This document shows positions 4,101 through 48,941 of a DNA stretch of 49,395 nt, piece by piece. Numbering within the stretch: the first letter of the stretch is position 1; every line of letters begins with the position of its first letter. The stretch covers positions 1-49,395 of the IMG/VR virus record IMGVR_UViG_3300037808_001135; one strand, 5' to 3'. Source of the stretch: a virus. Under the pieces are notes generated by a model. It did not search any database. It was given only the letters and a program-made list of their open reading frames with translations, and was not told the DNA's origin. The translations under genes were made by a program, and so were the position numbers.

Positions 4101-4457
4101 ATGGTCGCTGAATACAACCACTTCAACGTCACCGTCTCCGCCAAGGAGGACTTTGACTACACGATGCAGACTGACCCGGTGGTCAACTTCTCTACCTGGA
4201 CGTCCTTCTACGGCGCCATGGGAGGGGACCGGGTCACCGACGCGCCACTGGTCAAACTGACCGTCACCGTCATAGGCGTTGGAACCACTGGGCAGTTGCG
4301 CCTGCAGGCCTCGGAGACCGCCACGGCCGGCCTGAACACCGTCAAGCAGATCCGCCGGCGCATGGACATCTTCGGACTGGACGGGTCCGGGGACCGCAAA
4401 CTGGTCGCCCAGGGTTGGTACGAGGTCCGCCGCACATCCACGGTCGACTTCACCTGA
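4101..4457 (+). CDS. Small beta-rich protein coupled to the sulfatase, 118 aa
   Basis: The protein starts at an ATG with AGGAGG five bases upstream. It appears all-beta (alternating hydrophobic and polar residues, for example LVKLTVTVIGVGTTGQLRLQA) and ends in a short beta stretch. The size and pattern resemble small immunoglobulin-like or baseplate-adaptor-like domains of phage adsorption proteins, but I recognise no family with certainty. Its TGA overlaps the ATG of the sulfatase gene (TGATG), so the two are translationally coupled. It may anchor or partner the sulfatase on the particle; this is inference. Confidence 0.78.
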   Translation: MVAEYNHFNVTVSAKEDFDYTMQTDPVVNFSTWTSFYGAMGGDRVTDAPLVKLTVTVIGVGTTGQLRLQASETATAGLNTVKQIRRRMDIFGLDGSGDRKLVAQGWYEVRRTSTVDFT

Positions 4458-5929
4458 TGGCTGTCACACTGACGCCGACAGACGGAACCACCATCCAGCC
4501 GAACATCGTCCACATCTTCCTGGACGACCCCATGCTCGAGCTCATGGGATTCATGGCCCCGAGACAGGACTGGGGCGGGGCCCATGCCCTGCGGCCACAG
4601 ACGCCCTTCCTCGACTCGATGTGCGAAGCGGGCGTGCTCTGCCTCGACCATTACGCCAACCCGGTCTGCTCCACCTCGAGAGCGACCATGCTCACCGGGC
4701 TCTACCCCCACACCCACGGCGTGGGCACTGTCGTCGACGTCTCTCGCAAAAGCCCCGTCTTCGCGGAGTTCAATGTCCAGGCGGGATACAACGGCCTCAG
4801 CACCACCGCCATGCTGCTCAAGGCCGCCGGCTACAACACCGGCATTGTCGGCAAGTGGCACCTGGCCAACCACACCACCGACGTCCCCGCCGGTACTGGC
4901 TTCCCCCACATCAAACTGGCCTCGAACGGGGGCGGCTTCGACGATGCCAGGTGCGTCTTCTCCAACCTGGTGGTTCCCCCCGACGTCGGCTACTACAACT
5001 ACAACTGGTGGGATGGAACCACCGTCACCGCCGAGACAGAGTACCTCACCTCCAAGCAGGCCACCGAGGCGATCGACTTCACCACCACCAGCTCGGAGCC
5101 GTTCTATCTCTACATGCCAACCAACGACACCCACGACCCACTGGATGCCGTTCCTGCCGGCCTGCCCTACTCTGACGACTTCGATCCCCCTGCGGTTGCC
5201 GCTGTCTACACTCGCTACACCGCACACATCGAAGGCCTCGACCGTGAGCTCCAGCGCTTCTACGACAACATCCCCATTCAGAAGCGGGACCGGACCATCT
5301 TCTTCATCTCCGCCGACAACGGCTCCTCCGACGATGTCCTCGAGAACGCTCGCGACCAGTTCGGACTGAACATCGGGGACACTCACGACTTCCTGACCGA
5401 TCGCCCCGAACGGCGCTGGAAGCAGTCGGTCTACGAGGGAGGGGCCCGCTCCTGGTGCATCATCGCCGGCAAGCCCGTGCACACGCCCGGGCGCACCTCC
5501 GGGGTCCTGACTCACATCACCGACTTCATGCCCACCTTCCTCGACCTGGCACACGCAGCCCATCCGGCCGGGCTGGTGGGCTACTCGATGGAGCCGATCA
5601 TCAAGAACGACACCCTCGGCCGGGATACCTGGGCCAGGCAGCAGGTGCTCACCGACCACTGGTCCCCCAACGGCGACTGGACCGCCATCACAGGGGCCGA
5701 GACCAACACCAACTTCTTCCGACGCGCCTTCTCCAGCCAGGTCAACGTCAGCGGAAGGTGGAAGCTGATCCAGGACTACACCCTGCCCGACCTCCTCTAC
5801 CAACTCGAGGGGCCCGGGGGGGTGCGTATCGACCCACACGAGCGCAACCCGATCGACTGGACGTCTGGTACCGGCGCCACAGTCAAGTCTGAGCTCGAGA
5901 CCCAGTTGACCGCGGAACTGGCCCGATGA
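4457..5929 (+). CDS. Sulfatase (arylsulfatase / alkaline-phosphatase superfamily)
   Basis: The 490-aa protein has the sulfatase landmarks in order: metal-binding Asp23-Asp24 after NIVHIFL; the nucleophile motif C71-S-T-S-R75 followed by ATMLTGLYPHTHGV; GKWHL (132-136) with Lys133 and His135; THDP with His226; DNG (287-289); and Lys322 with YEGG (326-329). In the family the cysteine is oxidised to formylglycine and sulfate esters are hydrolysed with a bound divalent metal. The usual Pro/Ala at the third position of CxPxR is Thr73 here. No signal peptide is visible. The ATG at 4457 overlaps the upstream stop (TGATG), and the stop overlaps the next gene (ATGA). Its place at the head of the virion operon suggests a role in host-surface glycan modification or a virion enzyme. 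A phosphonate monoester hydrolase is an alternative within the superfamily. Confidence 0.93.
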   Translation: MAVTLTPTDGTTIQPNIVHIFLDDPMLELMGFMAPRQDWGGAHALRPQTPFLDSMCEAGVLCLDHYANPVCSTSRATMLTGLYPHTHGVGTVVDVSRKSPVFAEFNVQAGYNGLSTTAMLLKAAGYNTGIVGKWHLANHTTDVPAGTGFPHIKLASNGGGFDDARCVFSNLVVPPDVGYYNYNWWDGTTVTAETEYLTSKQATEAIDFTTTSSEPFYLYMPTNDTHDPLDAVPAGLPYSDDFDPPAVAAVYTRYTAHIEGLDRELQRFYDNIPIQKRDRTIFFISADNGSSDDVLENARDQFGLNIGDTHDFLTDRPERRWKQSVYEGGARSWCIIAGKPVHTPGRTSGVLTHITDFMPTFLDLAHAAHPAGLVGYSMEPIIKNDTLGRDTWARQQVLTDHWSPNGDWTAITGAETNTNFFRRAFSSQVNVSGRWKLIQDYTLPDLLYQLEGPGGVRIDPHERNPIDWTSGTGATVKSELETQLTAELAR

Positions 5930-6318
5930 AGGACAACGACGCCCGCATGCCAAAGGAGAACATCCAGGCCACCAAGGACGCCAACCGCATCCTCACCAAG
6001 GCCAGTGACCCGCACTGGAAGGAGAAGGCTAAGTGGTACCAGGAGAAGCAGGCGCCGCACGTGGGCGTCCGCGACCAGGTCCAAGCGTATGAGGACCGGA
6101 TCGTCGACGGCGAGGCCATGAGCCCCGACGAGATGCTGCGCCTCTCTCAGTTGGTCATGCTCGACCTCCTCAAGACACACCGGCCCGGCACCAGATTCCA
6201 AGCGGCCAAGAAGTTGATGGAGATGGCTCAAGACATGGGAGGGCGCCGTGAGGAGCGCCAGGACGAGGCTGACAAGGCCCCCGAGAAGAGCGCGGCAGAC
6301 CTAGCGCGCGGGCGCTGA
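5926..6318 (+). CDS. Hypothetical helical protein, 130 aa
   Basis: Charged, predicted all-helical protein (GEAMSPDEMLRLSQLVMLDL around residues 62-81) with a lysine/arginine/glutamate-rich C terminus. It overlaps the sulfatase stop by four bases (ATGA). The family is unknown. Its position before the terminase, with a helical core and charged tail, would allow it to be a small terminase subunit, though the 7074 gene is the better candidate. About 50 non-coding bases follow before the next strong ribosome site. Confidence 0.75.
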   Translation: MKDNDARMPKENIQATKDANRILTKASDPHWKEKAKWYQEKQAPHVGVRDQVQAYEDRIVDGEAMSPDEMLRLSQLVMLDLLKTHRPGTRFQAAKKLMEMAQDMGGRREERQDEADKAPEKSAADLARGR

Positions 6319-7073: not shown

Positions 7074-7334
7074 GTGGTCAGTTGTTCGATCGAGGGGTGC
7101 GAGCTGGGCGCAAGGGTCCGGGGCTACTGCCGTAACTGTGTGCGCAAGCTCCGGCGGCGGGGGATCGGGGTAAGCGGGGAGACACGCATCCCCGACATCC
7201 CCACCCGGGCCGCCAAGGTCACTCCCGAGGAGAAGGTGGAGATGGTTCGCCTGCGCTCCCTCGGCTGGACCACCTACCAGATTGCCAAGCACGTGCATGT
7301 CAACCAATCGACTGTCAGCAGGCACTTGCCGTGA
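7074..7334 (+). CDS. Zinc-finger plus helix-turn-helix protein, candidate small terminase
   Basis: The 86-aa protein begins at a GTG directly after the previous stop. Residues 4-22 contain four cysteines in the pattern C-x4-C-x9-C-x2-C (SIEGC, RGYCRNC), then a basic stretch. Residues 51-86 form a resolvase-type helix-turn-helix (GWTTYQIAKHVHVNQSTVSR). A small DNA-binding protein immediately upstream of, and overlapping (GTGA), the large terminase gene is the usual place of the small terminase subunit that recognises the packaging site. It could equally be a transcription regulator. The domain calls are firm and the role is inferred. Confidence 0.82.
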   Translation: MVSCSIEGCELGARVRGYCRNCVRKLRRRGIGVSGETRIPDIPTRAAKVTPEEKVEMVRLRSLGWTTYQIAKHVHVNQSTVSRHLP

Positions 7335-9451
7335 AGGCCCCTGAGCTGCGCAGGCTCCGGGGGTGGAGGGAGCCGACCGAGAAGCAGAAGGACGAGATAT
7401 ACGACGCCTGCCGGCTGGAGTTCCCCGACGATGAGGACCAACGCGAGGCTCTCGAGTTCAAGGTGCGCTACTCTCGCCACCGTATGCCGCAGATCCGGCA
7501 GTTCATCGAGGCCCACCTCAAGATCAAGGACGTCGCTGGCCGCATCATCCCCTTCATCCTCAACCAGACTCAGCGCTATGCCCTGGCGCAGATCCTGAGA
7601 GAAGGGCGTAAGCGAGAGGCCTGGGTCGACCCCTCGAACGGCAAGGTCATCTACCGGCGCGAGCGAGACGTTGGGGTGGCCGGCAAGACACGCATCTTCT
7701 GGCGCGAGCTCGCGAGCGGTGCCGAGTTTGACCAGGTGCCCCGCAGTGTCTGGGATGGCATGCACCTCGAGCGCGCACCCGGCCCGGTGCTCTTCATTGT
7801 CCTCAAGGCCCGCCAGCACGGCATCTCCACCCTCGTCCAGGCGCTCTTCTTCGAGTCGATCATGCGCGGCGACAACGTGGCCGTGAAGTTGATGAGCCAC
7901 GCCGGAGAGTCCGCCGCGGAGATCCTTGAGATGCCTGGTCGCTTTATCGACTACCTCGAGATTGACGGCCGCCCGATCAAGCTGCCGATGACCTCGCGCA
8001 ACGACTCTGAAGGCCTGATCCACTTCGACAAGCCCATCGGGGGCAAGATCACGATCGGCACCGCCCAGGCCAAGAAGGACCCCGGCCGGGGGTCGACCTA
8101 CCAGAAGGGCCACTTCACCGAGATTGGCGACTGGGAGCCCAAGGCCTACGAGTTGATGACCGCCCTGATGCAGGTCGTGCACCACGTGCCCGGCACCGTC
8201 GTCGCGGCGGAGTCAACGGCCAAGGGAGCCCAGGGGTGGTTCTACGACCAGTGGCATCTGGCCGAGCGCGGCGAGTCTGACTTCGTGCCGATCTTCCTGC
8301 CCTGGTTTTGGAGCGAGGAGTACCGCCGCGACACCGCCACCGCCTCTGAGTTGCAGGAGATCGAGAACACTCTCGACGACCCCAAGTTCTGCTCTGCCAG
8401 CGAGGAGACGTACCTGCTCGAGCAGGTCTACTACCGACCGGGCCACGGCCATGTGAAGGTTGACTACTACCAACTGGCCTGGCGTCGGTGGGCGATCTTC
8501 AACAAGTGCGGGGGCATCCTCGAGAAGTTCCACCAGGAGTACCCGGCCTTTCCGGCCGAAGCCTTCCTCGCGTCGGGGCGCCCGGTCTTCGACCAGATCC
8601 TGATGCACAAGCGCCTTCAGGCTGGGCAGCCCGAGCCCTTCTTTGTGGGCGAGCTCGCACCTATGGACTGGAAGACCTTCCTGTCTGAGGAGGACCCGAT
8701 CGACTGGTTTGAGAAGTGGCCCGAGCCCGAGCGCGTCAAGAACCGATTCGGTCACCTGCGTCTATGGGAGGAGCCCGACCGTGAGCTCTCCTATGGCATT
8801 TCGATCGACACCTCCGAAGGGGTTGAGGGTGGCGACTACACCTGCATCGTCGTCGGGGAGTTCTACACCGGACGACAGGTCGCGGAGTGGCACGGCCTCT
8901 GCAACCCAATCGACGCCGCGCGCATCGCCTGCCGGCTGGGCTACTGGTATGGCACCGCCCTGATTGGGCCCGAGAAGAACAACCACGGGTACACCTGCAT
9001 CACCGAGCTCGCGGACAACTGCCTCTACCCGAACCTGTACCAGCGCAAGGCGCGGGCCAAGGTGGCGTCGGCGGCAACCGACCAGTTCGGCTGGGTCACC
9101 AACCCCACCACCCGCAAGCAGCTCTTCAACACCATGCGGCGGTTCTTCCTGGACTACCCCGAGCTGTTCGTCTCGAGACCCTTGCTGCTTGAGATGCAGG
9201 GCATGACCTACAATGAACGCGACATCGAAGTCTGCCCCCGCCGAGACCAGCACGGCAACGCCGGGCACGACGACCGCGTCCTGGCATTCGGGATCTTCCT
9301 GCAGATGCGTGACGAGGCCTTCCGCCTGCGCATCGTGAAGACCCCGGAGAAGAAGAAGCGCAACGAATTCGACGCCCACTGGGAGGGCGTTGACGACCTG
9401 TATGAGGCGCACAGCGCCATACCGCACCCCTACGGAGATACCGATGAGTGA
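7331..9451 (+). CDS. terL: Large terminase subunit (DNA packaging ATPase/nuclease)
   Basis: The 706-aa protein has an adenine-binding-type segment (FILNQTQ, 75-81), a deviant Walker A with KARQHGIST (159-167), a Walker B-like HFTEIGDW with catalytic Glu264, and a coupling motif VAAESTAKG (291-299). The C-terminal RNase H-like nuclease shows SIDTSEGVEGGDYTC near residue 491 and HDDRV near 646. It powers DNA translocation through the portal and cuts concatemers. It is longer than many terminases (about 500-600 aa) because of an N-terminal extension and an insertion around 92-150. The GTG start at 7331 overlaps the upstream stop. Confidence 0.95.
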   Translation: MKAPELRRLRGWREPTEKQKDEIYDACRLEFPDDEDQREALEFKVRYSRHRMPQIRQFIEAHLKIKDVAGRIIPFILNQTQRYALAQILREGRKREAWVDPSNGKVIYRRERDVGVAGKTRIFWRELASGAEFDQVPRSVWDGMHLERAPGPVLFIVLKARQHGISTLVQALFFESIMRGDNVAVKLMSHAGESAAEILEMPGRFIDYLEIDGRPIKLPMTSRNDSEGLIHFDKPIGGKITIGTAQAKKDPGRGSTYQKGHFTEIGDWEPKAYELMTALMQVVHHVPGTVVAAESTAKGAQGWFYDQWHLAERGESDFVPIFLPWFWSEEYRRDTATASELQEIENTLDDPKFCSASEETYLLEQVYYRPGHGHVKVDYYQLAWRRWAIFNKCGGILEKFHQEYPAFPAEAFLASGRPVFDQILMHKRLQAGQPEPFFVGELAPMDWKTFLSEEDPIDWFEKWPEPERVKNRFGHLRLWEEPDRELSYGISIDTSEGVEGGDYTCIVVGEFYTGRQVAEWHGLCNPIDAARIACRLGYWYGTALIGPEKNNHGYTCITELADNCLYPNLYQRKARAKVASAATDQFGWVTNPTTRKQLFNTMRRFFLDYPELFVSRPLLLEMQGMTYNERDIEVCPRRDQHGNAGHDDRVLAFGIFLQMRDEAFRLRIVKTPEKKKRNEFDAHWEGVDDLYEAHSAIPHPYGDTDE

Positions 9452-9824
9452 AGTAATCAACCCTACCGCGCCCCTCAGCGTCGGGGCCGGCGAGTCCGCC
9501 GCGCCCCAAGCCATAGACCTCTCAGGTAAGCGCCTGGAGGACCTGCCCCGGTACTTTGAGCCATACGGGGACTACCTCCTTGTCCAGCCGCTCCCGCCGG
9601 AGGAGATCACCAAGGGGGGGATCATCCTGGTCGAGAAGAATGTGGAGCCTCCCGCCATCTCTGTTCTGGTGGCCAAGGGGCCCGATGCGGGGCGCTACGA
9701 GGAGGGCGACTGGCTCAGCCACGCGCCCTTCGTGGGGCAGCACCTGCAGTTGGGGGCGACAAAATTCCTGGTTTTCCGAGAAGAGGAAGTCCTGGGGCGC
9801 CTGGTGGAACGGGAGAGGCCGTAA
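9444..9824 (+). CDS. GroES-like co-chaperonin
   Basis: Residues 41-120 of this 126-aa protein align with GroES/Cpn10: YGDYLLVQPL, then the mobile-loop region with the GroEL-binding signature GGIIL (58-62), then AISVLVAKGPDAGRYEEGDW, and an ending of the KFLVFREEEVLGRL type. GroES caps GroEL and helps fold proteins; phage versions such as T4 gp31 help fold capsid protein. The first 40 residues are an extension not found in bacterial GroES. The ATG at 9444 has GGAGA upstream and overlaps the terminase stop. It sits between terminase and portal, which suggests a role in virion assembly. Confidence 0.88.
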   Translation: MSEVINPTAPLSVGAGESAAPQAIDLSGKRLEDLPRYFEPYGDYLLVQPLPPEEITKGGIILVEKNVEPPAISVLVAKGPDAGRYEEGDWLSHAPFVGQHLQLGATKFLVFREEEVLGRLVERERP

Positions 9825-10084
9825 TGGAGCCCCTGTGGGCGATCTTCGGCGTTCTGGTGCTGTTTCTGTGCCTGGGCGTATGGCTCTCCATGCTGCTCTG
9901 GCTGCAGCTCACCCGCATGCAAAAGCGACAGCTCGACTTGACGGAGCTGTTCGCATCGCAGATTGTGGCCTTCAAGTTCGGAGACGCCGGAGCACTACCG
10001 AGCCCCACGGTGCCTGACCAGTACCCGCGGGGCATGGACTTTGAAGATCCCGAGAGACATGTAGGAAGCGGCAGCATCACCTGA
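9824..10084 (+). CDS. Small single-pass membrane protein, 86 aa
   Basis: One strong membrane helix spans about residues 5-28 (WAIFGVLVLFLCLGVWLSML), followed by a short charged helix and a polar tail. There is no lipobox. The ATG overlaps the GroES stop (TAATG) and its own stop overlaps the portal ATG (TGATG). Membrane proteins encoded beside portal genes are uncommon. It might be a holin or a small inner-membrane assembly factor, but neither is established. Confidence 0.8.
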   Translation: MEPLWAIFGVLVLFLCLGVWLSMLLWLQLTRMQKRQLDLTELFASQIVAFKFGDAGALPSPTVPDQYPRGMDFEDPERHVGSGSIT

Positions 10085-12168
10085 TGGGCAACCTCAACGA
10101 CGACCAGGCACTTGAGTTTCTGCGCACCCGCGTCGACCCGAGCGGCGTCACCGCCGACCGCCATCGTCTCGAGAAGGCCTGGACGGACCACGTGGCCTGG
10201 TACTGTGGCTTGCAGCATTACGCCAGGGCCCAGGATGGGCACCTTCGGCTGCCCCGCGAGCACACCCGGTCGCGGGGCCGCCTGCGGCACGTCGTCAACC
10301 TGATCAAGCCCAACATTCTGCGCAACGTCTCCAGGATGCTCGAGCTCGACGTCACCTTCGACGTTCTTCCGCGCAACGGGGACATCAAGAACCTCCTGGC
10401 GGCTGAGGTGGGGCGCAAGTATTTCCAGTGGCGCCGGCAGTCGCCCGAGTACCAAGCGGCCATGCTCGAGGTGATCCTCTGGACAGCCATCTGCGGCACT
10501 GGCTTTACCAAACTGCACTGGGACCCGCTCGCGGGGGACAAGAGCCGCATCTACCTCGACAAGAAGTTCGAGCTTCTGCCCGGTGGTCATAGATCCAGAG
10601 GCGGGGCCTCCGCCCCAACCCTGACTCAGGCCGAGCGGCAGGCCAAGGAGGAGGCTGGCCTCTTCGTCGACCACGCCCCCGGGGCTCCTAAGATCGACGC
10701 CCTCTCCCCCTTCGAGTTGATCGTCGACCCCCGTGCTCGGATGCGGGGGCTTGCGGATGCCCAGTGGGCGGTGCATCGCAAGTTGATGATGCGAGACCAG
10801 GCCATGGAGTTGTTCCCGGACTCCCGGGCGGCCATCGAAGAGGCTGACGCCTACACCTTCGACTCAGGCAGCGTCTGGTTCCTTGAGCTCATCTCGCAGT
10901 TCGCGGCTGGCCAGGAAGGGCTCTATGCCCCCAACGTCGCGGAGTACGAGCGCAACGACCTGGTGCTCATTGACGAGCTCTGGGGCCGAGCCGGCCCAAC
11001 CTTCGGGCCCCAGGGCACTCGAATCATCCGAGTGGGCAAGCATCACCTCGTGGCCAACGAGGCGAACCCCTACGCCGAGGCCGGGGTTGAGCTGCCCTTC
11101 GTCGCTTGGCGCTGGTCCCCCAACCCCGGGCAGATGTACGGGGGCGGACTGGTGCAGGAGATGATGAGCGCCCAGGACGCCTACAACCACGACCGCTCAC
11201 GTATCCGTGAACAGGCCAGGCGCCACGGTAACCCACGCATGTTGGTGCCGCGCAACGCCGGTGTGCGAGAGACAGACTTCTCCGAGTCCCCCAACAACCT
11301 CATCTACTACAACGCCGCCGGCGGACCCCCCATCCCGGTTGCGGCCCCCGACGTGCCTCAGTACGCCAGGGAGGAGATCACCCGGGCGGAGATGGAGATC
11401 GACAAGGTCGGAGCCACCAGTCAAGCCGACCAGGGCCAGGCCCCCGGTAGCGTGCGTGGCTCAATCGGCATCCGCATGCTGCTCGACCGCAGCGATCAGG
11501 TGCGTGACCCCATCATCTTCCAGCACTTCATGGCCACCCAGGAGCTGGGTACCCAGGAGCTCAGGCTCGCCCAAGCCTTCCTGAAGGATAACCGCATGCT
11601 GACCATCCTCGGTCAGGGGGGCGAGCGCGAGATGCTGGCCTTTAGCGGCGCTGACCTCAGACAAAACACCACGCTCTTCGTCACCTCCCAGCCCGGGCAG
11701 CGCGACAACCAGATTGCGCGGGTTGCCGATGTGGACTTCCTGCTCGAGCGCGGCGTGCTCAACCCGCAGAACCCCGCCCATCAGGCGGAGATCCTTAGGG
11801 TCATGCGGTTCCGCGTCCCCAACGAGGAATACTCGATCGAACTGCAAGAGGAGATCGACGAGAAGTCGGTCATCCAGCAGATGACGGAGAATGCGCAGTA
11901 CATTCCCGAGCCCAACCCGTGGGAGCTCGAGGAGCCGCGGCTACGCGCCATCAACGCCTACCGCCGCAAGCGCGACCTGTGGTCCAGTCTGCCGCAGAAC
12001 ATCCAGGCCAACATCTCGGCCCGCGCCGACATGTTCCAGGCCACTCTCCAAGAGAAAATCCTCCAGCAGCAGATGCTGGCGGCGTCCCTCCAAGCCGGAG
12101 CGCCTGCCCCTAAGGGTGAGGCCAGCCAACCCAAGTCCTCAGGGGCTCAGGAAGCGAAGTCAGCATGA
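10084..12168 (+). CDS. Portal protein (podovirus-type)
   Basis: The 694-aa protein lies after the terminase and before the capsid genes. It carries the helical and mixed segments seen in large podovirus portals, for example HVVNLIKPNILRNVSRMLE near residue 77, a wing-type core through 150-450, and a Gln/Ala-rich coiled C-terminal part (FQATLQEKILQQQMLAASL) like a barrel or crown. It would form the dodecameric DNA channel at one capsid vertex. The ATG overlaps the preceding stop, and its stop overlaps the next ATG (ATGA). The family is assigned from order, length and pattern. Confidence 0.88.
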   Translation: MGNLNDDQALEFLRTRVDPSGVTADRHRLEKAWTDHVAWYCGLQHYARAQDGHLRLPREHTRSRGRLRHVVNLIKPNILRNVSRMLELDVTFDVLPRNGDIKNLLAAEVGRKYFQWRRQSPEYQAAMLEVILWTAICGTGFTKLHWDPLAGDKSRIYLDKKFELLPGGHRSRGGASAPTLTQAERQAKEEAGLFVDHAPGAPKIDALSPFELIVDPRARMRGLADAQWAVHRKLMMRDQAMELFPDSRAAIEEADAYTFDSGSVWFLELISQFAAGQEGLYAPNVAEYERNDLVLIDELWGRAGPTFGPQGTRIIRVGKHHLVANEANPYAEAGVELPFVAWRWSPNPGQMYGGGLVQEMMSAQDAYNHDRSRIREQARRHGNPRMLVPRNAGVRETDFSESPNNLIYYNAAGGPPIPVAAPDVPQYAREEITRAEMEIDKVGATSQADQGQAPGSVRGSIGIRMLLDRSDQVRDPIIFQHFMATQELGTQELRLAQAFLKDNRMLTILGQGGEREMLAFSGADLRQNTTLFVTSQPGQRDNQIARVADVDFLLERGVLNPQNPAHQAEILRVMRFRVPNEEYSIELQEEIDEKSVIQQMTENAQYIPEPNPWELEEPRLRAINAYRRKRDLWSSLPQNIQANISARADMFQATLQEKILQQQMLAASLQAGAPAPKGEASQPKSSGAQEAKSA

Positions 12169-12779
12169 GCAGAACGCAGTTACAGAAAGACGCCGCCGCC
12201 AAGGCGCGGTTCGCTAAGGCCGAGAAGGCCGCCGAGAGGGAGGCCGGGACCGACAGTGCCGTCGACAGCCCCCCCGCTCCCGTCAAGGCCGCCCCGGCCG
12301 CCCGGGCGCGCGTTGCCGACCCCGTCTACGACGAGGAGACCGGACTTCCGTTCAGCAAGGAGGAGCTCGAGGACATGTCGGTCTCCAACCTGGCTCCCGA
12401 ACAGACAGTTGCCGCATTGCTCATGGAGAGCATCATTCAACGAGGCAAGAAGGAGCAGGATGACCTGGTCAGAGAGCGCGAGAAGGGCAAGGTCTACTAT
12501 GTGAAGTGCCGCTTCTGCCCTGCGCCAGGCTTGTTCTTCAGCTCGAACCCTGGGCTGGGGCCGTTTACGGCCGACCAGTGGTTCGCCAGTTACAAGCCCC
12601 TCAACCTGGGTTGGCAGCACGGCCAGATGCCGCACTGTCAGAACTGCAACCGTGAATTGCCCCTCAAGAGATGCCAAGACGGGCAGTCTTACAAGGTCAT
12701 CAAGAGATTCCTGGCGAACGAGGACTCCAGACAGCATCGTAAGACCGTGATGCCTAACGAGCAGGAGACCACCGCGTGA
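12165..12779 (+). CDS. Zinc-ribbon-like virion-region protein, 204 aa
   Basis: The N-terminal 60 residues are Ala/Pro/Lys-rich and disordered. A helical segment (70-105) and two cysteine pairs follow: CRFC and, about 50 residues later, CQNC with an additional C (LPLKRC). The four or five cysteines suggest one structural zinc site. Unrecognised, but placed between portal and scaffold and overlapping both neighbours. It may be a head-assembly accessory protein. A GTG start for the next gene overlaps its stop. Confidence 0.82.
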   Translation: MSRTQLQKDAAAKARFAKAEKAAEREAGTDSAVDSPPAPVKAAPAARARVADPVYDEETGLPFSKEELEDMSVSNLAPEQTVAALLMESIIQRGKKEQDDLVREREKGKVYYVKCRFCPAPGLFFSSNPGLGPFTADQWFASYKPLNLGWQHGQMPHCQNCNRELPLKRCQDGQSYKVIKRFLANEDSRQHRKTVMPNEQETTA

Positions 12780-13999: not shown

Positions 14000-15364
14000 A
14001 TGGCAGTCGGCCCCACAATGGGTGTTCGATTTGATGACGGCAGCGCGGATAGTTTCTTCACGAACATGCTTCGTGAGGACTACCGCCCGGGAGTCATCGA
14101 CACCCTCAACAACACAAACTGGCTCTGGGGTTACCTGGGCCGACCCGATTTTCACGTCGAAGGAAAGCACTGGGTGCACGGTATCCACACCGGGCGCTCG
14201 GCTGGCCACGGCGCGATCGGCCCCACGGGAGCCCTTCCCGACCCGGACAGCCAGAAGTACGGTCGCTGGCGCGGCCCGATGCGTCACCACTACGGGCGCA
14301 TCCAGTTTGGCACCGTCGTCCAGGAGGCTTCCGCCTCCGCAGTGGCGTCGTTCATGCAGGCCCTCGACGGGGAGATCCGCGGCCTGACCGAGGACATGAC
14401 ACGGGAGCAGAACCGCTTCCTCCAGAACGACGGCTCTGGCCGTCTCGGTGAGTGCAACAATGCCGGCGAGGAGCTGCTTGAGCTCACCGTCAGGCTGCCG
14501 CAGATCAACGAGTCTCCGGGCACGATGACGGGCATGGACGCGACCAACTGGTTCCGTGTGGGCCAGCGCCTCCTGATCCTTGCCTCTGGTACGGGCAACC
14601 CGACTTCGGCCTCCACCATCCGTGGGGCTACCACCGTCACGGGCATCACCAGTGCCACCACGCTGGCGGTCACAACTCTGGGGGCTATCGGCATTGTGGT
14701 GGGCGACTGGATCGTCATCAACTCCTCCGCAAGCAACACCACCGACGACATCAGCTCCGGCTACCGCCGCGAGCCGATGGGGCTGTCTGGCATCCTCTCC
14801 GATGCCAACCCGGCCGCTTACGACACCGAGGACGCCTACGAGACGGCGTTCAACACCGACTCCTTCCAGAACATCGACCGCGGCCCGGCCGGCAACGACT
14901 TTGCCGACGCCAACGTGCTCGACGGTGGCGGTGTGTCCCGTCCTCCGCATGAGATGCTGATCCAAACCGCGCTCACCCGAGCTCGCAAGACCAACAACTC
15001 CAACGTGGACGTCATGTACTCGAGCCTCGAGCAGATCGACGCCTTTGGCGCTCTCCTGCTGGCGGATCGCCGGTACATGAACACCATGCGTCTCTCAGGC
15101 GGTTGGAACGCCGTCGACTTCGCCGGCATTCCGTGGATGGGCGACCGTGACGCATACCCCAACCGCATCTCTTTCTTGGACACCCAGCACCTGCCCATCT
15201 ACGAGCTGCAAGGCTACGACTGGGAAGAGCGAGACGGCCTGTTCAAGCGACTGCCTGACCACGACATGTTCCAAAGCATGTTCCGTGGCCGTTGGAACCT
15301 GGTCTGCACCATCCCCAACAAGCAGACGATCCTGACGGAGCTGACCGAAGAGATCACCACCTGA
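14000..15364 (+). CDS. Major capsid protein (HK97-fold inferred)
   Basis: The 454-aa protein starts at an ATG with AGGAGA upstream. It has an N-terminal arm, a helix with DMTREQNRFLQNDGSG near 132-147, and a beta-rich insertion at about 175-250 (TTVTGITSATTLAVTTLGAI), followed by capsid-type segments including YDWEERDGLFKRLPDHDMFQ near 410-429. A strong ribosome site, a scaffold-like upstream gene and a strong hairpin just downstream suit the most abundant virion protein. The fold is inferred from context; similarity to N4 gp56- or P22-type coat proteins is possible but unproven. Confidence 0.87.
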   Translation: MAVGPTMGVRFDDGSADSFFTNMLREDYRPGVIDTLNNTNWLWGYLGRPDFHVEGKHWVHGIHTGRSAGHGAIGPTGALPDPDSQKYGRWRGPMRHHYGRIQFGTVVQEASASAVASFMQALDGEIRGLTEDMTREQNRFLQNDGSGRLGECNNAGEELLELTVRLPQINESPGTMTGMDATNWFRVGQRLLILASGTGNPTSASTIRGATTVTGITSATTLAVTTLGAIGIVVGDWIVINSSASNTTDDISSGYRREPMGLSGILSDANPAAYDTEDAYETAFNTDSFQNIDRGPAGNDFADANVLDGGGVSRPPHEMLIQTALTRARKTNNSNVDVMYSSLEQIDAFGALLLADRRYMNTMRLSGGWNAVDFAGIPWMGDRDAYPNRISFLDTQHLPIYELQGYDWEERDGLFKRLPDHDMFQSMFRGRWNLVCTIPNKQTILTELTEEITT

Positions 15365-18924: not shown

Positions 18925-19235
18925 TGAGAACGCATGGCGTACAGGTGAAGGGGCACACCCCGGGTAGGGGCTCGGTGACAATAGTCGGGAAGGCCTCTGA
19001 TCGGATCATCGTCTACTCCATCATCAGGCTCGATAACGGCCTTGGCACGCTGACAGTGGAAGGTAAGGGGGCCGTGCCTACCCCCAGCTTCGTCCTCGAC
19101 TTCGCTGTCACGGACCCTCCCGGGGAGATCGAGTTTGGACAGCAGGGCATTCTCTTCCCGGAGGGTTGTCAGATCACCACGGGCGGCTCTGGGTCTGACT
19201 TCTCTGTCGTCTACGAGAAAGTCGATCGGATCTGA
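18924..19235 (+). CDS. Small beta-rich tail-region protein, second of paralogous pair
   Basis: The 103-aa protein overlaps the previous stop (TGATG). It repeats THG-x-QV, VYSIIRLDN, QGILF and a C-terminal SDFSVVYEKVDRI. It is shorter than its paralogue because the early loop is reduced. It lies directly before the giant hub gene and overlaps its start, so it is coexpressed with tail genes. Confidence 0.78.
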   Translation: MRTHGVQVKGHTPGRGSVTIVGKASDRIIVYSIIRLDNGLGTLTVEGKGAVPTPSFVLDFAVTDPPGEIEFGQQGILFPEGCQITTGGSGSDFSVVYEKVDRI

Positions 19236-22200
19236 TGCCGATCCCCCCGCAATACACGGGGTTCCAGCTGAAGCCGCTGGGGTCTGACGGGCTCGAGACA
19301 TCGACCCCCGCCGACCTCCTACAGGACGGGCAGAGCCCCGCCGCTGAAAATGTCGACTTCGACCGGATGGGGGTCTCGGAGGTGCGCGGCGCAGTCAAGA
19401 TCGGCAACAGGCCGATGCCGAAGTCGGCCATCAAGACCACGGTTTCGCGCTCGCCGCTAAAGGTGACCGCTGGCGTCTCGGTGCCAGTGCGCGGGTACGC
19501 CGTCTTTCCCTACGCCGAGGACATCGACCTGGGCGGAGACTTCAACACGGACGGCGTTGCCGCCCCCAGCGAAGCCTTCCACCTGCGCCGCGGCAAGAAG
19601 GCCGCTTGGTCGCTGAAGGTCAGTTTCCAGGTCCCCGAGGAGGAGAAGCTCTACGCCCAGGACACTCGAGGCAGCGGGGCCCCGGCTGTGGGCGCAGAGG
19701 CCGCGGGCTTCGACTTCGGCAGTTGGGCCTACGACGAGGGCTTCGAGGACACGACGATCATCTGGCAGAAGGGCGGCGACCGCGTCACCCCCATGTCCAT
19801 GTTCATCGGCATCGTCAACGTCGGGACCAAGCTCTACCGCGAGCTCACGGACCCGGCGGTGCCTGGCCTCAACATCGAGGAGCGCTCGAACTACGTGGTG
19901 GTCTTCGGCTGGCTGGACTCCCCGCAGTGGGGCGCGAGCGCCTCGGAGTTCATGCGGTACAAGGTCGGTACGGGCGGTACCCTCGTCGGCTCGACCGGCT
20001 CAGTCTGCACCAAGGCCTACCGCATCATCGCCACTCGGCACTTCGTCGAGCCGGGCCACGACTACCACCTACAGGTCAGCCTCAAGCTCGACACGGGCAC
20101 GCCTGGTGCGCAGGTCGATGCGGACGACCCGACCGCGGCCTGGGAAGAGGACGGGGAGTTCCGTGTGGCCATGTCGGAGACGGTCTTCGACAACGAACTC
20201 AACCCGATCGGTGACCACGAGCAGAGCGCGACGGACCTGGCGACGGACTTCTTCGTGCTCAAGGGGCCGCTCGATTCCATCGCCTACCTCCTCCGCTACG
20301 GCGTGCGCTTCAGTGGCAGAGACGCCACCTTCCTGGGCTTGGGCATGCGCAACATCCCGCGCCAGGCCAACGGCTTCATTCCTACAGGCAACGACGCTGC
20401 GGCCCTCGAGAAGGGGGGGCACCGCATGATCGACTGCTCGAGCGTTGACCCCCTCGCTGACCTGGGGGTGAACCTGGGATGCTCCCACACCCTAACAGCC
20501 GACACTTTCGTCTCTGTCAGCCACGAAGCTATGACAGGGGCAGGTGGACCGGCGATGACCTTCGCGGGGGCCTACAGCGGCCCTAGCGCGGCGATCTGGC
20601 CCGGGCTGGGCGGCGCGGCCCATAACCCCGATGCCCTGCGCGGATACTACCTGGTGCTTGGGAGTGCAGCACCGGCGAACCTGCGCGGAGCCAGAGTGCG
20701 CCTTGGGGCCTACGCTGCGGGCCCCCCTTTCCAATTTGCCTGGCTCGACCACGCAGGAACCCCGGCCACCTGGACCGACGAGCCCTGCTTCCTCCAGTGC
20801 CTGCGCTGGAATCAGCGCCCGCTGGTCCTCGACGAGCTGCGCATATACGCCACCGACCGCCCCACGGATGCCACCGCGCTAGGCTTGGGCGTCCAGAGAC
20901 GATTCGACCTGGCCGGGGAGGCTGAGCTCGACGACTCAGGGCACTCTGAGATCGCCCAGCTCGTCGCTCACTGGCCACTGGACGATGGCGAGGGTGGAAC
21001 GCTCCGGGAGACCGTCGCGGCGAGACAGGGGGCGCTGGCGCCTTTCAGCGGCGCGGTCAGCGACACGGGCCAGCGGGGGAAGAACATGCTCTTCCTCTCA
21101 GGCGAGGGCGAGGCGCTCACGATCGACCTCTCAGAGAACCCAGTCTTCCTGAGGGAGTTCCAGTCCATGCTCCAGAGTGGGCGTGGAGGCTTCGCCGTCC
21201 AGACCTCGATGATCCTGACGGAGTCGGTCTATGACGACTACGCGATAGTGGGCGCGGACGCTGTCGGGCAGTATGGCCCGCACCTGATCAGTTGGGAGAC
21301 CCGGGGTGAGAATGCCGAGGGCCTTACCGTGGCGGCCAAGCCTCTCCTGCGCTTCACCCAGAAGGTGTACGGCCCCACGGGCAACTACATCACCGCCTTC
21401 AACCGACCCATTGGCTTCGCGCTCGAGGTGGCCGGGGGGGACGACCAGGTCGGCGCGGTAGTCGACCTGCCCGTGCCCGCGCTCGACGGAGGCACCCCCA
21501 ACTGGGACGTCACAGCCCCCTGGGTCGGGCGCCACATCACCATCCAGGTGGGGGTCTACGCTGACCCGGATAACGCTGGGCAGTTCATTCGCTATGTCTC
21601 GGTCTACCCCAAGAGCGCCTTCTTGCCTGAGGATGAAGACCCGGACCAGATCGAGATGGCCTACTTCGACTCAGCCGCCATCCAGGCCAAGGACATCGTG
21701 CGGTCGGTGATTACGATTGGAGGCTCTTTCGAGACTGAAGGAGCTCCCTACTCCACCCTCAGCGCTCGTATGTGGGTTGACGAGGCTCATGTCTTCGCGG
21801 CCCCTGCGCCCGGCAATCTATCAGCCGCGTCAGGATCTGGCATCGTTCTGCGCGATGGGAAGATTGTAGGGGCCAACTCGTTCCCCCTGCGGGCCCTGAG
21901 TGGACCCGACCTCGAGCTCGATGTGGGGCCTGGCGTGCGCTCGGGAAACGTGGTCCAGGGCAGCCAGGTGATCACGGCCGCCAGCGCCCTTCGCTTCTTC
22001 GATGGGGACGCCGGCGAGAGCATGGACGCCCTGGTTGACACCTATCTTGTGGTGAAAGGGGATACCCATGAGAAGCGTGCGGTGGAGGCTATCCCTGAGA
22101 CCCTGAAGGAGCTCTACCGCGTTGACGCCCAGGCCGTTGACCGCTCCACGCTCACTCTGGCCACGCCCTACAACGGCGAGACGCGCGACAACGCCGGTAT

Positions 22201-25200
22201 GCGCTCCACTCGCCACTGCGCCTACACCGCATTCGACGACCTGAAGGTCGACCAGTTCCTGACGCTGGGCCGCGGGAAGGCCTATGTTCCTGGCACCACC
22301 ACATCCGGCGACGTCACACTCACTGGGCGCCTGGTCGCTAACCTGGCAGCCTTCGGCGGTGACTGGGTCCTACGCATCTACTCCCCGCTCGCCTCGAGCT
22401 CGGCCTTCGACGTCGTGCCCAGCTGGGTGCGCGGCCTGAAGATCCCCCGCCACAACCGCATCTCCTGTATGCGGGGCTTGGAGAGCCGTCGTTTTGCCGG
22501 CGCGAGTTCGAGTTTCTGCGAGGTCGATGGCCGCTGGCGTGACGACACCCCGCGCCCCGAGGGACGCCATTCTCTGCGCTTCCGCGGGGGGCGCTCTAGC
22601 GAGATCGCCGTGCAGGACCGCCTGGAGGGAGACTCGCTGATCTTCCCCACCCAGGGCGACATGCTCATGCTCCAGAACCCGCCGGCCGCTGCGTACATGC
22701 GCACGTCGACCGATGTCCTGGGCTTCGGCAACGTGGGCGCGGGCGAGGTGGGTCGCGCCAGGTACACCGAGTTCTGGGTCAAGCTCGACGAGATCGGCAA
22801 GTTCCAGACGGTGCTGTGGTGCGGCTCGATGGTCGACAACCCGGAGAACCTGCCCGGGGAGACGTTCTACGAGCACAAGGTCAACCGCATCATCCGCTTC
22901 GCAGACGGACGGCCCGAGTACGTGCTGCCCTCCGCCGCATCGGCAGCCGGTGGACGTCCCGACAAGGGGCTCTTCGTCGGCACAGCAGACGCCACGCTGC
23001 GCTCCGGCGAGTGGACCCACATTCGCTGGCAGATAGGGGAACTGACAGACGCTGACCCCCCTGGCAACTGGCATATCCTACGCCCGCGCTGCTGGGTCAA
23101 TGGCAAGGAGGTCACCGTCCGGGTCAACGTGGCCCAGACCGGCAATATCGACCCGCGCTGGTTCCAGACCGCCAACCTGATCGAGAGCGAGCTGGCCACG
23201 GCCGCCCTGGTCTTCGGCGCCTCCCGAGACAGTTACCTCGAGGAGCAGGAGAACGGCGCCTTCGTTGTCGACGTCGTCGCTGGCCTGAGTGTCTTGCCTG
23301 GGCGCCGCGTGGGGTGGATGCACGCCCTGGCTGGACAGTTGGTCGGCTTCGCAGAGGGCACCTCGACGCTGACGGACGTCAACAGCTTCGCTAACTTCGA
23401 GCCCAAGTTGTTCGCCACGGCAGCGGAGATGGACACGGCCTATACCGCCGTCGCCTCGCACACGACCATCCTCTTCATGGCCCTCAATGAGGGCGCTGGT
23501 CATCGCCCCAAGATCGAAACTCACAACCTCACCACCCTGGTCTCCTCTTGGGCGGTCCTTCGCAGCCACCCCTTCCTTTCCCTGGCCCATGACTTGGGCG
23601 ATCACGGCAAGCCCTTCACCATGGCGACCTGGGCGAACCAGGTGTACGCAGCCAACGGTGGGCGCCCGGCTTACTACGACACCGTGCGTCGGATCACGCG
23701 CCATGTAGGCCTGTTGCCGCCGACGAACAAGCCCAAGTTCGATGTCATCCGCAAGCCGCTGTGGAAGCAGAACTACCAGTCACTGGGGGACATCCTCAAC
23801 GACCCATTCCCGGTCGGGGGTTCTGATGATGACACGGACCTGGCGCCGAACCACTACTCCAACAACGGCAACAACTACCTGCAGCAACCCTTCGACGAGG
23901 AGATGCGCTGGGAGCGGGATGACAGCGAGGTGGCCGGAGTAAAGAACGACATCTTCGCCTTCAAGTGCATGTTCATGCTGCGCGACGTCGCCGGCAGGAT
24001 CGTCATTTACGAGCAGCGCGAATCGCTGGCTAGTGGCTCCATCTTCATCGAGGTCAGAGACGGCAAGTTGGTCATTGGTTGGTACGACACCTACGACAAG
24101 GCCGAAGCTACGCTGTCCACCTCGACCGCGGTCGTGAAGGCTGGACGCTGGTACTACCTCTATTTCCGCAAGCGTTGGCCTGAGCCGTCGAGCAATAACT
24201 GGTCGAACCCGCTCTACGCAGACCCGGATGGTCTTCCCTCCCGGTTGATCAAGGACAGCCTGGTGCTGCGCCAGTTCCCGACCGGGGACGCGAATGGTGA
24301 CGGCACAGGGGTCGTGCTGAACGAGACCACATACGACGTCAAGGCGGATGCGACGGGCACCCCGGGGTACCCCGCCTTCACGCGCCACTGCATCAGTTTC
24401 ACAACGCTGGATTCGAGCACCACCGACCCCCTGCTGACGGTCTCGGGCCGAGTCACCGACCACACCTTCGAGGCTACGGTGGCGGCAAGCGGATCGACTG
24501 CGACCTTCACGGTCACCGGCGGCGCACTCCACGCGGACATGTGGGGTATGCTCCTCACATACGTCTCGGACACTACGGTTCAGGTCGTCGGCAGGATCAC
24601 CGTGGTCGCCCCTGGTCTTGGCGGTTCGATCACCTCGCTCGATGGCAGCACCCTGCTCGACGCCACGGCCCAACCGGCGGCAATCTGCTTCGGCTTCAAG
24701 TTGGTCCCCAACGCCACCTTCGAGAACAGCCATCAACCGGACGAGGGCACGTTTCCGATCCGCCTCTTTGGGTCACCTCTCGCGCTCCAGGCGAGCAATG
24801 GCATCGCTCCCTTCAACGGCGAGTTCGGTTCCTTCGGGTACTGTTCCATCCGAGAGGACCAAACCACCCCAGGCCACCCCGGCGACAACCCGGAGATATT
24901 TCACAACGCATCGTCCCTGGTCGACGTCCTCGAGATCGGCACGGACAAGTTCGACAACCACATCTTCCGGGCGACAGCACCGGACGACCTCGTCTTCACG
25001 GTCACCGGGCAGAACTTCACGGTTATCCAGTCGACGCAGCCCAACGAGGACAGGGAGGTGGAGCAGGAGGGTGCCAGCAACTCGGTCAATGCCGAGTCGC
25101 TCTTCTGGAAGTACAACCAGGAGGTCCAGTTGCTCGACGGGTCACGTCGAATCTTCGTGACCTTCTATGACCCGAAGACGGGAGACGAGTCAGGACCCAG

Positions 25201-26779
25201 CCCGCTGCTGGACATCCACCCGAGCTCAGAAGACTTTTCCAACCCATCGGGGGATGCGCGCTTCCTCCTGACCGAGCTGCCAGTCTCGCGCGACGGGTCC
25301 GGGCTCTGGCGCCGGATCTACATGACGTTGATCGACGGCCAGGTCCCGCAGTTGGTGCAGACCATCGAGGACAACAGCTCAAGCTCCACCTCGCTGGTCA
25401 AGAGTGAGGGGCAGATCAGCCGGGGCCGCGTACTCGAGTTGTTCAACCGGCCGCCGGTGCGCGCCGGCATCGTAACTGTCTCGCAGCGCCGCATGTTCTA
25501 CGCGCAGTTGCCCGGGGAGCCCGGGACCCTGGTGTGGTCGGAGGCCTACCGACCGAGGGTTGTCCCGCTCAACAACCTGGGCTTGTTCGCCACGGGCGAC
25601 GGTGCGGACATTAGCGGCTTGGCAGACCTCAATGGGCGCATGATGATCTTCAAGGAGCACGGTTTCGTAGCAGAGACCTTGGTCAGCGAAGGGTCCTCCT
25701 CTGACCGCGTCTACCCCACGGACGCGGGCTGCTCGGCACACAACACCATCCAGCCCTTCCGCGACAGGATCGTCTGGAGGGACAGCGCAGGCCTCTGGAG
25801 CATGAACGCCGGGGGTAGGCCTGAGGCAATGAGTGACGGCATCCGCGACTTCATGCTCGATGACGAGGACTCACGCTTCCTGGGCTTCTCCACTGCAGCG
25901 GTGAACTCTCACCGCCGACAGTACGTCGTCACCGCGCAGCGCAAGGGGGTGTTCGATCCGCAGGTCCGTATCGCCTCCGGCATCGGGCGCAATGGGCCGG
26001 TTATGGCCCTCTACCGCTCACCGGCCCTGGTATCGCTCGCTGCCGTCAAAGGTCCTGCCGGTGGGCCGCGTGTCCTGGTCGGGGGGGACGTCTTCGGGTT
26101 TGCCTACGAGCTCGACCGCCCGGGATCTAACTCAATCGGCATCGGGCCCCAGGATGGCTATGCCGCAGGCGGGCAAGTCGTAAGTGTTGCCTCCGGGTTC
26201 TCCGCCACGCAGAACGCTCCAATCAAGGTGGAGGTCAAGGCCACCTTCGGTCACGACGAGGAACTGTGCGGGCCCCGAGGGGTCGAGATGCGCTGGCTCG
26301 TCGGGTCGGTGGAGAAGCGAGCGATCGCCCTGTTCATGGCGGACTCAGGCGCCGGCGACCTGTGGCTGATGCCCGACCGCACGATTCCAGCAGCTGACCT
26401 TCCCGCAGCCGAGGCGCTGATCCATCTAGGGACCCCTTCGTTCTTCTGGGAATCCAAGTGGCTCGACTTCGGCTCTCCCACGCAGTCGAAGAAGCTCCAC
26501 TTCATCGACGTCTACTGGGAGCCGGGGGCGACCGGGTCGGTGACACTGAGCCTGTACAGAGACTTCAGCTCCACTGCCTTCCTGACCAAGGTGCTGGATG
26601 TGTCGGCCAGTGACGGCATGACCAGGGTCCCCATGGAGCGTGGAGACGTGAAGCTCCTCAAGGCCCGCATCGAGCGGGTGGCCGTCGCGGCCCTTGGCAC
26701 CAGTGACCCTGGCGACTACGACACGGGGGCGGTTTTTACCTCGATCGTCTTTAGGTCACAGACACAGGACCTGCACTGA
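19235..26779 (+). CDS. Giant tail hub protein with concanavalin/LamG-like insertions
   Basis: The 2514-aa protein starts like phage tail-hub proteins (residues 26-60: DLLQDGQSPAAENVDFDR then RGAVKIG). Its C-terminal part (about 1990-2300: RPPVRAGIVTVSQRRMFYAQ, SGLADLNGRMMIFKEHGF, IVWRDSAGLWSMNAGG) looks like the beta-propeller of P22 gp10/T7 gp12-type hubs. Between them are about 1800 residues with at least three concanavalin-fold modules: LVAHWPLDDGEGG near 577, ending with ARMWVDEAHVFAAP near 845; one around 1155-1400; and one from about 1572. Such modules commonly bind glycans. Usual hubs are 600-1000 aa. The ATG overlaps the preceding stop. Split-hub architecture is inferred from motifs. 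Confidence 0.82.
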   Translation: MPIPPQYTGFQLKPLGSDGLETSTPADLLQDGQSPAAENVDFDRMGVSEVRGAVKIGNRPMPKSAIKTTVSRSPLKVTAGVSVPVRGYAVFPYAEDIDLGGDFNTDGVAAPSEAFHLRRGKKAAWSLKVSFQVPEEEKLYAQDTRGSGAPAVGAEAAGFDFGSWAYDEGFEDTTIIWQKGGDRVTPMSMFIGIVNVGTKLYRELTDPAVPGLNIEERSNYVVVFGWLDSPQWGASASEFMRYKVGTGGTLVGSTGSVCTKAYRIIATRHFVEPGHDYHLQVSLKLDTGTPGAQVDADDPTAAWEEDGEFRVAMSETVFDNELNPIGDHEQSATDLATDFFVLKGPLDSIAYLLRYGVRFSGRDATFLGLGMRNIPRQANGFIPTGNDAAALEKGGHRMIDCSSVDPLADLGVNLGCSHTLTADTFVSVSHEAMTGAGGPAMTFAGAYSGPSAAIWPGLGGAAHNPDALRGYYLVLGSAAPANLRGARVRLGAYAAGPPFQFAWLDHAGTPATWTDEPCFLQCLRWNQRPLVLDELRIYATDRPTDATALGLGVQRRFDLAGEAELDDSGHSEIAQLVAHWPLDDGEGGTLRETVAARQGALAPFSGAVSDTGQRGKNMLFLSGEGEALTIDLSENPVFLREFQSMLQSGRGGFAVQTSMILTESVYDDYAIVGADAVGQYGPHLISWETRGENAEGLTVAAKPLLRFTQKVYGPTGNYITAFNRPIGFALEVAGGDDQVGAVVDLPVPALDGGTPNWDVTAPWVGRHITIQVGVYADPDNAGQFIRYVSVYPKSAFLPEDEDPDQIEMAYFDSAAIQAKDIVRSVITIGGSFETEGAPYSTLSARMWVDEAHVFAAPAPGNLSAASGSGIVLRDGKIVGANSFPLRALSGPDLELDVGPGVRSGNVVQGSQVITAASALRFFDGDAGESMDALVDTYLVVKGDTHEKRAVEAIPETLKELYRVDAQAVDRSTLTLATPYNGETRDNAGMRSTRHCAYTAFDDLKVDQFLTLGRGKAYVPGTTTSGDVTLTGRLVANLAAFGGDWVLRIYSPLASSSAFDVVPSWVRGLKIPRHNRISCMRGLESRRFAGASSSFCEVDGRWRDDTPRPEGRHSLRFRGGRSSEIAVQDRLEGDSLIFPTQGDMLMLQNPPAAAYMRTSTDVLGFGNVGAGEVGRARYTEFWVKLDEIGKFQTVLWCGSMVDNPENLPGETFYEHKVNRIIRFADGRPEYVLPSAASAAGGRPDKGLFVGTADATLRSGEWTHIRWQIGELTDADPPGNWHILRPRCWVNGKEVTVRVNVAQTGNIDPRWFQTANLIESELATAALVFGASRDSYLEEQENGAFVVDVVAGLSVLPGRRVGWMHALAGQLVGFAEGTSTLTDVNSFANFEPKLFATAAEMDTAYTAVASHTTILFMALNEGAGHRPKIETHNLTTLVSSWAVLRSHPFLSLAHDLGDHGKPFTMATWANQVYAANGGRPAYYDTVRRITRHVGLLPPTNKPKFDVIRKPLWKQNYQSLGDILNDPFPVGGSDDDTDLAPNHYSNNGNNYLQQPFDEEMRWERDDSEVAGVKNDIFAFKCMFMLRDVAGRIVIYEQRESLASGSIFIEVRDGKLVIGWYDTYDKAEATLSTSTAVVKAGRWYYLYFRKRWPEPSSNNWSNPLYADPDGLPSRLIKDSLVLRQFPTGDANGDGTGVVLNETTYDVKADATGTPGYPAFTRHCISFTTLDSSTTDPLLTVSGRVTDHTFEATVAASGSTATFTVTGGALHADMWGMLLTYVSDTTVQVVGRITVVAPGLGGSITSLDGSTLLDATAQPAAICFGFKLVPNATFENSHQPDEGTFPIRLFGSPLALQASNGIAPFNGEFGSFGYCSIREDQTTPGHPGDNPEIFHNASSLVDVLEIGTDKFDNHIFRATAPDDLVFTVTGQNFTVIQSTQPNEDREVEQEGASNSVNAESLFWKYNQEVQLLDGSRRIFVTFYDPKTGDESGPSPLLDIHPSSEDFSNPSGDARFLLTELPVSRDGSGLWRRIYMTLIDGQVPQLVQTIEDNSSSSTSLVKSEGQISRGRVLELFNRPPVRAGIVTVSQRRMFYAQLPGEPGTLVWSEAYRPRVVPLNNLGLFATGDGADISGLADLNGRMMIFKEHGFVAETLVSEGSSSDRVYPTDAGCSAHNTIQPFRDRIVWRDSAGLWSMNAGGRPEAMSDGIRDFMLDDEDSRFLGFSTAAVNSHRRQYVVTAQRKGVFDPQVRIASGIGRNGPVMALYRSPALVSLAAVKGPAGGPRVLVGGDVFGFAYELDRPGSNSIGIGPQDGYAAGGQVVSVASGFSATQNAPIKVEVKATFGHDEELCGPRGVEMRWLVGSVEKRAIALFMADSGAGDLWLMPDRTIPAADLPAAEALIHLGTPSFFWESKWLDFGSPTQSKKLHFIDVYWEPGATGSVTLSLYRDFSSTAFLTKVLDVSASDGMTRVPMERGDVKLLKARIERVAVAALGTSDPGDYDTGAVFTSIVFRSQTQDLH

Positions 26780-41630: not shown

Positions 41631-41884
41631 TCCTCCTCCTCATCGAATCCGTAGTCGAGGATGCGGGTGCCCTCACCCTCGTAGGCCTTGAGGTACGCAC
41701 GGACGAGGTTCATCATCTCCGACTCGGTCGATGGCTGCCCGGTGGTGCCCCCGCAGAGGTTGACGCCACTGTCTGTCTCCACGGCCAGGATCACGATCAG
41801 GCGGACAGATGCCCCGTCAGGGATCTCACTGCCCGCCCCTTTGATGCAGCGCTCCAAGAGGGCCATGGCCTCGATGGGGTCCAT
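41627..41884 (-). CDS. Hypothetical protein, 85 aa
   Basis: I use the ATG at 41884, which overlaps the Rad52-like stop (TGATG); a longer frame would run into that gene. The protein is small and mixed alpha/beta (VRLIVILAVETDSGVNLCGG near 27-46) with an acidic end. Family unknown. Placement between an annealing protein and an endonuclease suggests a recombination accessory role, but no motif shows it. Confidence 0.72.
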   Translation of the reverse strand: MDPIEAMALLERCIKGAGSEIPDGASVRLIVILAVETDSGVNLCGGTTGQPSTESEMMNLVRAYLKAYEGEGTRILDYGFDEEEE

Positions 41885-42891: not shown

Positions 42892-43111
42892 GATGCACCG
42901 CCTTCGTTATCAGATCGAGCTGAGCGGTAAGGCACTTCCGGCAGAGGTCGTCAAGATGGAACTCGTGGATCCACTTTCTCTCTTGTTCATACGCTCTACC
43001 TCGTCGGGTCACCCGCATCCGGACGTCCTCGTCCACCTTCGCGTCATTGACGGAGAACGGCTCCTCGGGCGAGTCCTCCGCCCCACAGTTGTCGCATTTC
43101 AGAATCTTCAT
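42884..43111 (-). CDS. Small zinc-ribbon protein, 75 aa
   Basis: CDNC near the N terminus (6-9) and CRKC near the C terminus (57-60) form a likely four-cysteine zinc site with basic residues between (RMRVTRRGRAYEQERK). The start follows a GGAGGAACC ribosome site, as in several neighbours. It ends overlapping the Rad52-like start. Possibly DNA- or protein-binding; not assigned. Confidence 0.78.
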   Translation of the reverse strand: MKILKCDNCGAEDSPEEPFSVNDAKVDEDVRMRVTRRGRAYEQERKWIHEFHLDDLCRKCLTAQLDLITKAVHRG

Positions 43112-48939: not shown

Positions 48940-48941
48940 AT

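Follow-up and report, generated by a model that had tools for sequence, protein, structure and literature searches.

An apparently intact sulfatase is encoded at the head of the structural operon of an uncultured phage, IMG/VR record IMGVR_UViG_3300037808_001135. We consider it somewhat probable that this protein is a standalone virion enzyme that edits host surface polysaccharide during adsorption. The record is linear, 49,395 bases long and 63% GC, and the whole stretch is referred to here as the window. The gene lies at 4457..5929 on the + strand, and its 490-aa product, an S1-type (formylglycine-type) sulfatase without a signal peptide, is predicted from its residues and its modeled fold to hydrolyze sulfate esters.

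The sulfatase and its catalytic residues

The 490-aa protein matches PF00884 with E=1.6e-35 (123.3 bits against a cut-off of 25), with residues 15-366 corresponding to model positions 1-300/301. A phmmer search against the PDB returned 57 distinct sequences at E<=0.001, nearly all of which are named sulfatase. The NCBIfam equivalogs for choline-sulfatase (38 vs 433 bits), PehA phosphoric-sulfuric ester hydrolase (36 vs 900 bits), and Mn-arylsulfatase (20 vs 850 bits) all scored below their cut-offs and were rejected. AlphaFold2, given 17 homologues from phage contigs, produced a model with pTM 0.77 and a mean pLDDT of 63.8, reaching 85-95 in the best core blocks but weak in loops. It contains an alkaline-phosphatase-like fold with a C-terminal subdomain across residues 12-490, and Foldseek matched it with an E of 3.8e-19. 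More specifically, the model aligns with human N-acetylgalactosamine-4-sulfatase (1fsu) at Z 32.6 and 3.9 A over 366 residues (span 12-490) and with the carrageenan S1_19 sulfatases 6psm / 9hh2 at Z 31.7. The protein thus shares the fold over residues 12-490, the metal site, and the catalytic residues of S1 formylglycine sulfatases, but differs from them in its low identity (~20-31%), its CSTSR motif, its location in a phage late operon, and its lack of a secretion signal.

The original prediction had described a full-length, non-decayed sulfatase on the strength of ten landmark residues and had proposed structure prediction as a check, and both the family match and the model bear this out. 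All ten residues (D23, D24, C71, R75, K133, H135, H226, D287, N288, and K322) were found at their predicted positions on the + strand, and nearly all are invariant among 18 phage-contig sulfatases. Metal ligands D23 and D24 (4523..4528) are invariant in this set, as are H226 (5132..5134) and K322 (5420..5422), while metal ligands D287 and N288 (5315..5320) are invariant or nearly so. The catalytic pair K133-x-H135 lies within GKWHL (4853..4861) in the alignment of the same 18 sequences, and the nucleophile motif C71-S-T-S-R75 occupies 4667..4681.

In this last motif an earlier reader missed a departure: it carries T at the third position instead of the P or A of the usual CxPxR or CxAxR form, with the C and R kept. 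Across the 18 rows the third position is P except in the window protein, L018 (V, CTVSR), and L023 (A, CTAGR), and the window protein is the sole member with T. In human sulfatases the motif proline matters for maturation, and a proline-to-leucine change at this position of IDS is pathogenic (PMC10185571). The threonine may therefore lower formylglycine formation, and the predicted activity of the window sulfatase is likely rather than certain. By escaping formylglycine maturation, a protein that departs from CxPxR in this way could also persist as a catalytically dead fold serving as a binding or structural module. We regard this as very improbable, since all other catalytic and metal residues are kept, which is unusual for a dead scaffold, and since other third-position variants exist in L018 and L023. 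A gene for the formylglycine-generating enzyme (FGE) was found neither in the window nor in 12 other phage records (13 in total, several of which are fragments), so maturation would rely on the host.

Position at the head of the structural operon

The reading frame is real at 4457-5929, and GC by codon position (0.59/0.47/0.87) favours the + strand over an overlapping 581-aa minus-strand ORF. The sulfatase gene resembles the genes for the terminase large subunit (TerL) and portal in codon use and GC3 (0.87), which fits long-term residence in the phage genome. The surrounding genome is podovirus-like, with a structural operon on the + strand encoding TerL, portal, major capsid protein, and two giant proteins. 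This operon opens with the gene for a 118-aa protein (4101..4457), followed by the sulfatase gene and the gene for a 130-aa protein without a family match (5926..6318). The first junction is TGATG, with one base shared, and the second is ATGA, with four bases shared. An AGGAGG ribosome site precedes the 118-aa gene, while the sulfatase itself has no obvious Shine-Dalgarno sequence; a promoter scan around 4101 found none. The sulfatase is therefore the second coupled gene of a run leading toward TerL, portal, and capsid, as judged from gene layout rather than transcription, and its predicted position at the operon head was confirmed.

Translational coupling to both neighbours had also been predicted and is supported by the two overlaps, but the accompanying description of the upstream product as beta-rich gains no support here, as the model of the 118-aa protein has a mean pLDDT of 40 and is not usable evidence. 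This model gave no fold match, and family and homologue searches with the protein returned no family and no phage homologue. By eye it was suspected to be a small beta-sandwich adaptor, but BLASTP against the small proteins of the L024 contig gave nothing, and we do not put this identity forward. A small terminase would be a guess for the 130-aa protein, made from position alone.

Further downstream, an 86-aa helix-turn-helix protein (7074..7334; HTH_23 E=7.3e-07) lies directly 5' of TerL (7331..9451; phrog_2 E=4e-11; 31% to MW202692 TerL). These are followed by a P22/SU10-type portal protein (10084..12168; PF16510 E=3e-18; phrog_156 E=3.1e-31) and the major capsid protein (14000..15364; phrog_14242 E=5.6e-41; NF033394 E=1.6e-37, exceeding the cut-off), all on the + strand. 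The TerL, portal, and capsid identities agree across PHROGs, Pfam, and NCBIfam. A GroES-like co-chaperonin is encoded at 9390-9824 (PF00166 E=1.2e-07), between TerL and portal. The giant proteins, of 2,514 aa (19235-26779) and 3,193 aa (30946-40527), have no Pfam match. The products of two neighbouring gene pairs (15423-16064/16068-16724 and 18514-18924/18924-19235) look like paralogues by eye, and the minus strand at 41884-49391 carries early-type genes, including those for a Rad52 family protein, a PD-(D/E)XK nuclease, GP88, and RadC.

Judged by portal and capsid, Arthrobacter phage Casserole and Cellulosimicrobium phage DS1 are among the nearest annotated phages, with identities of 20-25%. 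In these phages the position 5' of TerL is taken by an annotated minor tail protein (Casserole gp5) and, by eye, a tail-fibre-like protein (DS1); the structural genes of Casserole also include those for an esterase and a hydrolase. The resemblance is positional rather than orthologous, because the TerL proteins of Casserole and DS1 are not close to that of the window (18-19%). Among 80 TerL relatives, no sulfatase is encoded within the stretch covered for each, and the gene can thus be considered accessory. Receptor-binding genes are often accessory as well.

Sulfatases on related phage contigs

Three productive motif-limited scans of IMG/VR yielded ~20 further sulfatase loci, which is a lower bound; no relatives emerged when the sulfatase, TerL, or the 118-aa protein was scanned singly. 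The window protein and its phage relatives match PHROG 19870, which is annotated as "unknown function". These sulfatases fall into two classes, with and without an N-terminal signal or lipoprotein-like sequence. Members of the first class, such as L011, L012, L014, L015, L021, and L023, lie near structural genes and are possibly exported surface-modifying enzymes, with a best 15-residue hydrophobic mean of ~1.5-2.8 among the signal-bearing proteins. The window protein belongs to the second class together with L016, L024, L025, and L026-L030, and it has no N-terminal hydrophobic stretch: its best 15-residue mean is 1.10, at residue 20, inside the first core strand.

Within the signal-less class, five contigs from contractile-tailed phages (L026-L030) encode ~1,050-aa proteins that combine a structural-operon domain (phrog_5417) with a full sulfatase domain. 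These fusion proteins are located at 9344-12496 in L026, 9338-12208 in L027 (cut by the contig end), 9194-12358 in L028, and 9185-12322 in both L029 and L030, the last two being near-copies of one lineage. In the L026 fusion, the first 220 residues and the protein encoded by the gene that follows are paralogues (31%, E=8e-22; phrog_5417), and a baseplate wedge subunit is encoded upstream of the fusion gene (phrog_219; E=6e-20 in L026 and 1e-22 in L029). The sulfatase domains of these proteins share their catalytic residues and tree group with the window protein. Unlike the fusions, however, the window protein is standalone and lies in a podovirus-like genome, without the 220-aa N-terminal domain.

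Other signal-less sulfatases occur as separate genes among tail and packaging genes. A search of phage genomes for sulfatases adjacent to terminase genes had been proposed, and in L024 the gene lies between TerS and TerL. There, TerS is followed by a major-tail-like protein (phrog_9522, E=3e-05), a small protein, and the sulfatase, and two unassigned genes then separate the sulfatase from TerL and a probable portal, the latter without a PHROG match. Residues 1-90 of this sulfatase (8711-10876) contain TVTVR-type repeats, which are possibly a fibre-like attachment segment. In L025 the sulfatase gene is ATGA-coupled within a run of giant genes, downstream of a virion structural protein (phrog_21059), and in L016 a ~770-aa sulfatase is encoded upstream of the portal gene.

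The phylogeny was built from the phage rows and 34 cellular or plasmid sulfatases picked for similarity to the window protein. In the careful tree the window protein falls inside a 12-row all-viral set with support of 97/82, and when the longest rows are omitted it joins six phage rows at 100/99. End branches are long in this tree, and placement of the window protein together with the cellular rows and some of the other viral ones was not rejected by an AU test (p=0.356). The analysis therefore favours, but does not prove, a phage sulfatase lineage.

That sulfatases are rare in phages, as originally claimed, agrees with a tblastn search of 50,697 GenBank phage records, which gave 15 matches; those opened look like bacterial DNA. 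The MT83xxxx records that were opened are UNVERIFIED fecal entries with bacterial chromosomal genes, of Bacteroides type or other, and the matches from Salmonella and Acinetobacter carry bacterial-type sulfatases and were judged bacterial from annotation; none of these matches served as evidence for phage sulfatases. Records MT836438, MT836299, MT835586, MT835799, MT835490, and MT836891 are labelled Bacteriophage sp. while holding bacterial, mostly Bacteroides-type, genes, and they may mislead phage gene surveys. No genuine phage sulfatase was found in these 50,697 records, including when two phage relatives were used as queries. No phage sulfatase turned up in BFVD either, where the convincing matches came from giant eukaryotic viruses and were sulfatases or related hydrolases. 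Those of Yasminevirus and Tetraselmis virus 1 share the sulfatase fold in a virus with the window protein, but these viruses have eukaryotic hosts, the proteins show 13-16% identity, and their genome context is unrelated to that of the window. Literature searches for phage sulfatases turned up nothing beyond FGE, SoxB, targets of diversity-generating retroelements that have an FGE domain, and unrelated mentions.

A possible role in adsorption

Virion enzymes known to open carbohydrate barriers include glycosidases, lyases, lipases, and deacetylases. We propose that the window sulfatase would be made in the cytoplasm of the infected cell, without an export signal and in series with the 118-aa protein, that C71 would be matured by the formylglycine-generating enzyme of the host, and that the protein would then be incorporated into the particle. 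Its action during adsorption may be to strip sulfate esters from a sulfated host polysaccharide, either on the surface or extracellular, and this desulfation could give access to the receptor, as with the deacetylase tailspike of coliphage G7C. That tailspike, gp63.1, has been shown experimentally to edit O-antigen without cutting the backbone (PMC10743462). The proposed role is alike in that a decoration is removed, the backbone stays uncut, and adsorption is aided, but the ester would be sulfate rather than acetyl, and for the window enzyme the role is one that we infer. The virion depolymerases and esterases reviewed in PMC5380687 are also particle enzymes that overcome carbohydrate barriers, and that review contains no word beginning with sulfat- or sulphat-.

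Virion-linked desulfation, as the original prediction had suggested, is the best-supported reading because related phages either have the sulfatase domain joined to a domain from the structural operon or encode signal-less sulfatases among tail and packaging genes; presence in the window phage's own particle is the part that we would extrapolate from them. The L026-L030 fusion proteins appear to be its strongest support. Against this reading, no recognisable anchor domain was seen in the window protein, the 118-aa neighbour is poorly modeled, and the tree-group sisters L011 and L021 do bear export signals.

The absence of a signal peptide and of an anchor domain would also suit a cytoplasmic auxiliary metabolic or host-takeover enzyme, expressed from the late-operon head and left unpackaged, whose role would be to release sulfate or to act on a metabolite carrying sulfate or phosphate. 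This is the main rival. It gains from the close cellular homologues L031 (Paenibacillus), L032 (Halomontanus), and L037 (Puniceicoccaceae), which also lack an obvious signal peptide, from the alpha-L-fucosidase that adjoins L032, and from the cellular placement left standing by the AU test. However, the gene is coupled to the structural operon instead of lying in a metabolic or replication region, and in other phage lineages the domain stays within structural operons, even fused to a structural-operon domain. Late phage expression, moreover, leaves little time for a metabolic benefit. On balance, we consider an auxiliary enzyme unlikely, although it deserves to be weighed more seriously than the other alternatives.

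The signal or lipoprotein-like N-termini of several phage sulfatases, including L011 and L021 from the same tree group, fit export and raise the idea of a receptor-destroying enzyme. Such an enzyme, in the particle or not, would be freed at lysis and would desulfate host debris or nearby cells and thereby keep progeny from sticking, for which influenza neuraminidase is a precedent. The window protein carries no export signal and its release would need lysis, while the fusion of L026-L030 to a structural-operon domain favours action at adsorption, and this explanation is accordingly improbable for the window phage.

Returning to a virion enzyme, it is possible that virion-borne sulfatases form an overlooked class of adsorption enzymes in both podovirus-like and contractile-tailed phages, with a phage-specific lineage to which the baseplate-operon fusions belong, and that they desulfate sulfated-polysaccharide host coats. 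We hold this broader proposal with less confidence than the role of the window protein itself, and regard it as evenly poised. The window sulfatase offers an annotation lead for PHROG 19870. If the proposal is true, sulfate removal would be a new chemistry among virion enzymes that modify carbohydrates, and the hosts of these phages would be implied to have sulfated surface polysaccharides that act as a barrier or as a receptor. With this, an enzyme of the particle would depend on a maturation enzyme of the host, and the FGE status of the host could limit phage activity.
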